64,000 nt of DNA from the NCBI RefSeq assembly GCF_012844235.1, contig NZ_JABAGR010000005.1:1-64000 (forward strand). Direction: 5' to 3'. Below are positions 42,622-44,872 of this stretch, in pieces. The position numbers and the translations under genes were made by a program. Position 1 is the stretch's first letter, and every line of letters starts with the position of its first letter. Under the pieces are notes generated by a model. The model did no database searches. It had not been told where the DNA came from and saw nothing but the letters and a program-made list of their open reading frames with translations. The stretch comes from Parafannyhessea umbonata. Its GTDB lineage: Bacteria > Actinomycetota > Coriobacteriia > Coriobacteriales > Atopobiaceae.

Positions 42622-42802
42622 CGTGCCGGGTGCATGGCCGCCTCGCGTGCCTGCGCATGTGGCTTTTGGCTGACGCGGAGGTCGCGGCCACATATCGCAC
42701 GAAGCTGTTGTAAAGTAGTCACGTCTGTAATTGGTTTGCGAACGGCCGTGGGCCGTCGGCAAACGCAAGTCGTGCCGTCAGGCACGGGGGAGTCGTCAGG
42801 TC

Positions 42803-42901
42803 ATGCGTTCGAACAGTGACGAGTACAGGTTCTGCCCACGCACGCGCGCGAGTCGCGCCAACGCGAACGGTATTCCCACCACCACTACGACGACTATCTA
42901 G
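42803..42901 (+). CDS. Threonine-rich leader peptide of thrS
   Basis: 32-codon reading frame with ATG at 42803 and GGGGGAG about ten bases upstream. It ends GIPTTTTTTI: six consecutive threonine codons (ACC ACC ACT ACG ACG ACT), an isoleucine codon, then TAG. It lies about 200 bases before thrS. This matches the layout of amino-acid leader peptides such as thrL, where ribosomes stall on scarce charged tRNA. The stop codon is at the first base of the following GGCGCCTG stem. Strong inference; not known to me as a described element. Confidence 0.75.
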   Translation: MRSNSDEYRFCPRTRASRANANGIPTTTTTTI

Positions 42902-42951
42902 GCGCCTGTCCTTTCGATGGGACGGCCACGCGCCGTCTTGCGGCAGGCGCC
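42901..42951 (+). promoter_or_regulatory. Candidate attenuator stem after the leader peptide
   Basis: GGCGCCTG (42901-42908) pairs with CAGGCGCC (42944-42951). Inside it GACGGC (42921) pairs with GCCGTC (42932). An alternative fold pairs GCGGC (42940-42944) with GCCGC (42949-42953), exclusive with the first. No clear T-run follows, so the off-state may be Rho-dependent or act on translation. Confidence 0.5.
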
Positions 42952-43102
42952 GCGCTGCGTTGACCCCAGGGCTTCGGCCGGGCGCGCACGCTCTTCTCCC
43001 TTGGTATGAGCAAGGTCATCACACGGCACTTACATCATTTCACGGCAATGTCTGAGGGCGGGACCCATGGCGGGCACGCCCCACACACGAAAGGTTGCGA
43101 GC

Positions 43103-44872
43103 ATGAAGGTTCTTTACAACGACGGTCACGTGGGAGAGGTTCCCGCCGACGAGGAGCTCCACGTACTTCGTCACTCCGCGGCGCACATCATGGCGCAGGC
43201 CATCAAGCGCCTGTACCCCCAGGCGGACTTCGCGTACGGCCCCGCCACGGACAACGGCTTCTACTACGACATCGACCTTCCCGAGGGCACCAAGATCTCC
43301 GAGGACGACTTCCCGGCCATCGAGGACGAGATGCGCAAGATCTGCAAGGAGAACCTGAAGTTCGAGACGTACGAGCTCCCGCGCGCGGAGGCCATCAAGC
43401 ACATGGAGGAGCGCGGCGAGAAGTACAAGGTGGAGCACATCGGCGACCTTCCCGAGGACGCGCGCATCACGTTCTACAAGCAGGGCGAGTACGTTGACAT
43501 GTGCGTGGGCCCGCACATCCTGTACACGAAGGCGCTGAAGGCGTTCAAGCTGACGGGCGTCTCTGGCGCGTACTGGAAGGGCGACAGCAAGAACAAGATG
43601 CTCACCCGCGTCAACGGCGTCGCCTTCCGCAACAAGCAGGAGATGGACGAGCACTTTGCCCTGCTGGCGGAGGCCGAGAAGCGCGACCACCGCAAGATCG
43701 GCCAGGAGATGGAGATCTTCATGATGAACGAGGCCGGCCCCGGCTTCCCGTTCTGGCTGCCCAACGGCATGCGCATCCGCAACTCCCTCATGCAGTACTG
43801 GCAGGAGATGCAGGACAAGTACGGCTACGACCAGGTGCAGACGCCGATCATCCTCTCGCGCAAGCTGTGGGAGACCTCCGGTCACTGGGACCACTACAAA
43901 GAGAACATGTACACCACGAAGATCGACGACGAGGACTACGCGATCAAGCCGATGAACTGCCCCGGCGCGTGCCTCATCTACAAGAGCAAGCCGCGCAGCT
44001 ACCGTGACCTGCCGCTGAAGCTCGCCGAGGCCGGCATCGACCACCGCCACGAGCTGAAGGGCGCGCTGCACGGCCTGTTCCGCGTGCGCGAGTTCCAGCA
44101 GGACGACGCCCACCTGTTCATCCGTCCGGACCAGATCACGGAGCAGGTGACGGACGTCGCGCACCTGATCACGGCATACTACGCGCAGTTTGGCTTCCCG
44201 TACCGCGTGGAGCTGTCCACCCGCCCGGAGAACTCCATGGGCTCCGACGAGGACTGGGAGCGCGCGGAGGAGGGCCTGAAGAAGGCGCTCGAGGCCATGC
44301 ACGTGGACTACAAGCTCAACCCCGGCGACGGCGCGTTCTACGGCCCCAAGATCGACTTCCACCTGGAGGACTGCCTGGGCCGCGAGTGGCAGTGCGGCAC
44401 CATCCAGCTCGACTTCCAGCTGCCGCACAACTTCCAGCTTGAGTACGTGGACAAGGACGGCACCAAGAAGCAGCCGATCATGATCCACCGCGCGGGCTTC
44501 GGCAGCTTCGAGCGCTTCATCGGCATGCTCATCGAGCAGTATGCCGGCAAGTTCCCCACGTGGCTCTCGCCCTGCCAGGTCAAGGTGCTCCCCGTGAGCG
44601 AGAAGACCCGTGACTACGCGAACGAGGTCGCGCAGACGCTGCGCGACGCCGGCGTCCGCGTGAAGGTGGACGACCGCGACGAGAAGATCGGCTACAAGAT
44701 CCGCGAGGCCCGCTCCGTGGACCGCGTCCCCTACATGCTCATCCTGGGCGAGAAGGAGAAGGAGGCCGGCAACATCAGCGTCCGCGACCGCGCGACGAAC
44801 GAGACCACGCAGCGCGACCTTGCCGACTTCGTGAAGGACATCTGCGCCGAGATCAAGGAGCGCCGCGGCTAG
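43103..44872 (+). CDS. thrS: Threonyl-tRNA synthetase, lacking most of the N-terminal TGS domain
   Basis: Class II synthetase, 589 residues against about 640 in E. coli; the difference is the missing TGS domain, since the editing domain begins within 30 residues (LRHSAAHIMAQAIKRLYP). Editing-site motif HSAAH and YVDMCVGPH; catalytic-core motifs ending motif 2 (RHELKGALHGLFRVREF), MNCPGACLIY zinc cysteine, and motif 3 (AGFGSFERFIGMLIE). The anticodon-binding domain is at the C-terminus. ATG 43103 has AAAGG upstream. Likely regulated through the leader peptide. Confidence 0.96.
   Translation: MKVLYNDGHVGEVPADEELHVLRHSAAHIMAQAIKRLYPQADFAYGPATDNGFYYDIDLPEGTKISEDDFPAIEDEMRKICKENLKFETYELPRAEAIKHMEERGEKYKVEHIGDLPEDARITFYKQGEYVDMCVGPHILYTKALKAFKLTGVSGAYWKGDSKNKMLTRVNGVAFRNKQEMDEHFALLAEAEKRDHRKIGQEMEIFMMNEAGPGFPFWLPNGMRIRNSLMQYWQEMQDKYGYDQVQTPIILSRKLWETSGHWDHYKENMYTTKIDDEDYAIKPMNCPGACLIYKSKPRSYRDLPLKLAEAGIDHRHELKGALHGLFRVREFQQDDAHLFIRPDQITEQVTDVAHLITAYYAQFGFPYRVELSTRPENSMGSDEDWERAEEGLKKALEAMHVDYKLNPGDGAFYGPKIDFHLEDCLGREWQCGTIQLDFQLPHNFQLEYVDKDGTKKQPIMIHRAGFGSFERFIGMLIEQYAGKFPTWLSPCQVKVLPVSEKTRDYANEVAQTLRDAGVRVKVDDRDEKIGYKIREARSVDRVPYMLILGEKEKEAGNISVRDRATNETTQRDLADFVKDICAEIKERRG

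Follow-up and report, generated by a model that had tools for sequence, protein, structure and literature searches.

A conserved leader peptide with threonine codons probably attenuates thrS in Coriobacteriia

The gene for threonyl-tRNA synthetase (thrS) in the window analysed here, the whole 64-kb stretch of Parafannyhessea umbonata DNA, is preceded by a short upstream open reading frame (uORF) that, judging from sequence comparison, is probably the leader of a ribosome-mediated attenuator of thrS sensing the charging of Thr-tRNA. Such sensing was the core of the original prediction, and this core is strongly supported by the comparison among relatives, while the output mode and the alternative stem had to be changed.

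The uORF (42803-42901, on the forward strand, as are all features below) runs from an ATG at 42803 to an in-frame TAG at 42899-42901 and encodes MRSNSDEYRFCPRTRASRANANGIPTTTTTTI ahead of its UAG stop. Its 32 codons end in Pro-Thr6-Ile-stop, and a Shine-Dalgarno-like (SD) site, GGGGGAG, can be read from the sequence at 42786-42792. From the stop, 201 nt lead to thrS (43103-44872, with the start at 43103 placed from homologues), whose product is a threonyl-tRNA synthetase without the N-terminal TGS domain (TIGR00418, E 1.8e-210, and Pfam domains). The arrangement described beforehand, namely a 32-codon frame with a ribosome site, six Thr codons, Ile and a stop about 200 bases before thrS, was thereby confirmed in the sequence. 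The six Thr codons inside the uORF (ACC ACC ACT ACG ACG ACT, 42878-42895) form the sole such run in all six frames of the window, and a run of six appeared in 0/20 order-2 simulations of 64 kb. Some 90 nt before the uORF, the sequence TAAAGT (42711-42716) reads as a weak candidate for the -10 element of a thrS promoter; a consensus scan of the region called no sigma-70 site near the uORF. Between this candidate promoter and the uORF ribosome site, at 42733-42787, lie the GC-rich hairpins GTTTGCGAACGGCC..GGCCGTCGGCAAAC and CGTGCCGTCAGGCACG, the second of which has altered yet paired bases in L003.

The absence of a uORF or of Thr codons ahead of thrS in closely related genomes had been named beforehand as the observation that would count against a sensing leader. 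We gathered thrS loci from 398 Coriobacteriia genomes and from named genome contigs, and found that relatives do carry them. Thr-rich uORF ends are found in two close genera (for example MRHTSDVHMFRQATDACCIHAFLATRATTTVTI), and in other relatives a conserved block, ACTATCTAGGCG..TGTCC, is found at the uORF stop whether the Thr run is present or absent. Among 67 distinct uORF ends, codon -2 specifies Thr in all 67 (ACT 63, ACA 2, ACC 1, ACG 1) and codon -4 in 61 (ACG 30, ACT 23, ACC 7), while residues -1, -3 and -5 vary (I/M/L/F/R/K/T/A; Q/V/P/T/R/E/K/M). The changes at codon -4 are synonymous, and therefore the amino acid is kept and not merely the nucleotides, so that cognate codons near the end of the frame are conserved as amino acid, as in leader-peptide attenuators. 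The run of Thr codons, by comparison, turned out to be local, and what is conserved is Thr at -2 and -4; on this sequence evidence, the six-codon run of the window is a local extension built on a conserved T-x-T-[I/M/L]-stop end. Many leaders comprise 14 amino acids only (MQRIFAHIARTQTI), often ending in RTQTI-stop. An SD-like site accompanies 75 of 78 homologous uORFs and ATG starts 73 of the 78, both counts being biased upward by a choice of start that favoured SD and ATG. Sites resembling a -10 element, often TGTGGTAAACC or TGTGGTACAAC, lie upstream of 56 of the 78 (15.7 expected from shuffles). A short frame with SD and start codon thus sits between a putative promoter and the gene, which is the layout of a leader-peptide attenuator.

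Leader and gene also differ in their use of two codons. In the window, thrS uses ACT for none of its 23 Thr codons and CGA for none of its 37 Arg codons, and at leader codon -5 CGA accounts for 34 of 38 Arg codons; in the window leader this position (42884-42886) is ACT, where most relatives have CGA. The presence in leaders of ACT and CGA, both absent from the window thrS, can be expected of control codons, and CGA at codon -5 may slow down translation immediately ahead of the Thr codons. Attenuator leaders are known for biased codon use, which has been attributed to isoacceptors being charged selectively and not to rarity as such (PMC1183508). CGA at -5 is also kept in leaders without a terminator, and we found no pairing that explains it.

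Immediately downstream, the RNA folds into a hairpin, P1, in which 42901-42910 pairs with 42942-42951 below an apical stem (42918-42926/42932-42940), as indicated by folding and covariation. In the window, P1 (42901-42951) comprises 10 bp, has the G of the UAG stop as its first base and folds at -31.9 kcal/mol (z -2.1). Among 68 distinct sequences, 99% of P1 cells are paired, and double changes support 6 of the 10 pairs, against 0-1 when the partner is slid and none for a slide of 1. Of the mutually exclusive stems that had been proposed, P1 is thus real, whereas the second (42940-42953), which is able to form once the 5' arm of P1 has been masked, is confined to the genus of the window and lacks conservation. 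In the window, all 7 nt of the P1 loop CCTTTCG (42910-42916) could pair with CGAAAGG (43088-43094), the ribosome site of thrS; pairing of this anti-SD-like loop (UCCYUUC) with either SD, that of thrS or that of the uORF, was rejected, since relatives show no co-variation.

We considered whether P1 might instead be bound by the synthetase itself, with the uORF being incidental. In E. coli, ThrRS represses the mRNA that encodes it, and an element as well conserved and thrS-specific as P1 would suit autoregulation of this kind. We nevertheless regard this as very unlikely, because the apical loops of P1 differ in sequence and size and hold no constant Thr-anticodon triplet such as marks the stem-loop of an E. 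coli-type thrS operator, because the element spans two ThrS proteins that are just 44% identical, and because Thr is conserved as an amino acid, in a reading frame that has a start codon and an SD.

What appears to be held constant is the placement of P1 relative to the Thr codons. In the window, the ACT codon at -2 (42893-42895), which we propose as the invariant sensing codon, ends 5 nt before P1, and this distance is 5 nt throughout the relatives. In L194 and L046 the sequence reads CAG ACT TAA TC GGCG, such that the stop has moved beside the Thr codon and become UAA; the 5-nt spacing between Thr and P1 was kept despite the move, which argues that what counts is how far from P1 a ribosome on the Thr codon stands, and not the stop codon. 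For a ribosome with ACT in its A site, the first P1 pair would lie at about +12 from the P site, that is, at the mRNA entry of the ribosome. In one genus (L192, L193 and L201), P1 and the Thr codons are retained and the in-frame leader stop is lost; this leader looks, from its sequence, like a decaying attenuator.

The conservation of the RTQTI end across several genera could also reflect arrest by the nascent peptide, with the R-T-Q-T-I end causing a ligand-dependent stall at the stop codon, much as TnaC does with tryptophan. Against this stand the variable residues at -1, -3 and -5, which leave Thr alone as the kept residue, the many peptides of 14 amino acids, which are too short to fill the exit tunnel, and L194, which lacks residue -1 altogether. 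Arrest by the peptide therefore seems to us highly improbable as an account of the leader.

An intrinsic terminator (hairpin plus U-run) follows P1 in 54 of 76 homologous loci, compared to 5.3 expected from shuffles, and in 53 of these 54 the spacer from P1 to the terminator is 4-8 nt. At the level of the family, an intrinsic terminator thus lies between the frame and the gene, and we conclude from these sequences that the family's main mode is transcription attenuation by intrinsic termination. The copy in the window differs in this respect. A second GC-rich hairpin (42952-42991), predicted by folding, occupies the position of the relatives' terminator and is followed by a degenerate U-tract, TCTTCTCCCTT (the element spanning 42952-43002), and the terminator scan called no intrinsic terminator in it. 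Because this copy has no U-run terminator, we did not file it as a transcriptional (intrinsic-terminator) attenuator. The missing T-run that had been noted originally therefore holds for the window's genus and some other genera, but does not describe most of the relatives. The output in the window's genus may be weak intrinsic, Rho-dependent or translational.

These elements suggest how attenuation of thrS by its leader would work. When Thr-tRNA is scarce, the ribosome would wait with ACT in its A site, the base of P1 lying at its mRNA entry, and the parked ribosome would keep the terminator from completing, which allows transcription of thrS. With ample Thr-tRNA, the ribosome would reach UAG and leave, P1 and the terminator would fold, and transcription would stop. 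P1 and the terminator are predicted to coexist thermodynamically. For the step by which a parked ribosome prevents termination, we name two candidates, one steric and one an RNA switch, such as pairing between the uORF end and the terminator 3' arm.

To look for such a switch, we compared own with permuted duplex energies over 21 segment pairs. Three pairs co-varied, namely P1 (z -10.0), the terminator (z -13.3) and the uORF end with the terminator 3' arm (z -3.8); no signal came from the remaining 18, which serve as an internal control for relatedness. Among the rejected candidates, a freed P1 3' arm acting as antiterminator against the terminator 5' arm pairs worse than shuffles, and no co-variation was seen between the P1 3' arm and the terminator 3' arm or between the uORF end and the terminator 5' arm. 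No convincing antiterminator was found among the 21 pairs.

The third co-varying pair, taken at face value, would give a switch of the opposite sign. Pairing of the uORF end with the terminator 3' arm would act as the antiterminator, a ribosome on the uORF end would block it and promote termination, and an empty uORF would allow read-through, so that either Thr shortage lowers thrS or the leader senses initiation or termination of translation and not Thr. This is the only pairing to co-vary besides P1 and the terminator; moreover, in many species the uORF end nearly duplicates the terminator 5' arm, and freeing the uORF end lowers the predicted terminator in some loci (to 0.02 in L131 and 0.30 in L123). 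However, the co-variation is not significant with seven distant representatives, and termination under Thr shortage, which follows if the ribosome blocks the pairing, is physiologically odd, in that a synthetase lowered when its amino acid is short would make a destabilising loop. The invariant Thr codons would also be without a reason unless Thr supply is sensed. We thus judge a switch of this sign to be improbable, although less so than binding of P1 by ThrRS or arrest by the peptide.

Returning to attenuation that favours thrS when Thr-tRNA is scarce, the steric candidate would need no RNA switch at all. The folding of P1 takes away about 44 nt, which would set the ribosome next to the terminator and leave little room between ribosome and RNA polymerase; for this reason, a parked ribosome abutting P1 could directly prevent the adjacent terminator from zipping. 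We put this form of the mechanism forward tentatively, as a minority possibility. If it were true, the conserved quantities would be distances (5 nt from Thr codon to P1, 4-8 nt from P1 to the terminator) and not an alternative pairing.

We next consider how the leader is distributed. A covariance model built on the junction of uORF stop and hairpin picked out 86 of the 398 Coriobacteriia genomes, each with a single strong match (E 1.3e-6 or better). These matches come from two families of one order, that of the window and that of Collinsella, and wherever their places were compared with those of thrS they lay upstream of it; a thrS-like start follows 83-204 nt past the uORF stop in 77 distinct loci. 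Outside Coriobacteriia, 396 genomes drawn across the phylum returned just two marginal matches. The leader is also absent from many close relatives, and in 56 leaderless loci a Thr-ended uORF occurred in 1, against 4.8 expected from shuffles. None of the NCBIfam models matched the leader peptide, and a look for cognate-codon uORFs before hisS, trpS and leuS of the window's own genome yielded none that was convincing.

Another kind of ThrS is also found behind the leader; it has the TGS domain and is 44% identical to the ThrS of the window (as measured for L142). Such proteins are found under the leader in L142, L143, L147 and L160, where the end type is TQTI or TQTF in most. This suggests, at the level of sequence, that the leader stayed in place while the thrS coding region behind it was exchanged, the two having been recombined or replaced independently.

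Weak matches of the junction model before acyl-CoA-synthetase-like and ABC-transporter-permease-like genes were rejected as look-alikes and not thrS leaders. In L145, L149, L150, L157 and L158, a conserved hairpin, GGCAUCGUCCCCUU..GGACGGUGCC, comes right after the upstream gene and before the acyl-CoA-synthetase-like gene; the upstream gene ends in -II-stop in some of these loci, and in several GATTATC recurs as GATAATC before the acyl-CoA-synthetase-like gene. This hairpin is possibly a separate riboregulator. In L146, L151, L155 and L156, from Collinsella-family genomes, a conserved perfect hairpin, GGGCGCCTGTCCTTCC..GGCAGGCGCCC, stands just before an oppB-like transporter permease gene.

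The T-box riboswitch, which controls thrS in Bacillota, likewise senses tRNA charging for a synthetase gene, whereas the Coriobacteriia leader is proposed to do so through translation of its Thr codons. No T-box (RF00230) matched at the gathering cut-off in the window or at 40 other thrS loci, and at this cut-off Rfam found nothing but tRNAs in the window. T-box-like matches, below the gathering cut-off, do lie upstream of pheST (L218, contig C24) and ileS (L219, contig C12) in the window's own genome, with the genes named from their translations. Synthetase genes in this genome thus appear to use two different charging sensors. The E. coli thrS operator also provides RNA control upstream of the same gene; it is tRNA-like and bound by ThrRS, while the Coriobacteriia leader is instead translated. 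The E. coli pheM-pheST attenuator likewise stands ahead of a synthetase operon, and its leader peptide, with 14 residues among which the cognate amino acid is abundant, has a terminator behind it. It relies on a classical alternative antiterminator, whereas for the thrS leader none was found and a single hairpin of fixed geometry is conserved; and pheST in the window's genome has the T-box-like element instead of a pheM-type leader.

Closer parallels come from predicted elements. The uORFC-8-2 motif before cysS in Rhodobacterales, a computational prediction (PMC8632094), resembles the thrS leader in combining a short uORF, two conserved cognate codons, structured RNA and a terminator before the cognate synthetase gene, but its Cys codons lie inside the first stem, while the Thr codons here end 5 nt before it, and it concerns another enzyme in another phylum. 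The attenuators predicted for Streptomyces trpS and leuS (PMC1262725) are likewise leader peptides before synthetase genes in Actinobacteria; they differ in having Trp and Leu codons and predicted antiterminators, and thrS is not mentioned there. The ilvB-II motif of Corynebacterium (PMC10272879) shares a conserved uORF, a P1 stem and a terminator, and its proposed antiterminator pairs with the terminator 3' side, like the one co-varying pair of the thrS leader; its uORF, however, lies within P1, while the thrS-leader uORF stops at the first P1 pair, and it serves other amino acids and another gene. In bacilli, a His leader precedes hisS paralogues (PMC2965389).

In the open-access literature, with subscription journals mostly uncovered, we found no thrS leader peptide of this kind. 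The type of control is known and the thrS instance appears to be undescribed, its novelty being provisional. The fixed codon-to-hairpin spacing, kept where the stop has moved, makes a sharp and testable claim on the position of the ribosome, and, with no conserved antiterminator apparent, it may be asked whether all attenuators depend on one. With this leader, the threonyl-tRNA synthetase of a major lineage of gut bacteria (Olsenella, Collinsella and their relatives) joins the genes that are likely under the control of stalling leader peptides, and T-box and leader-peptide sensing become comparable within one genome.
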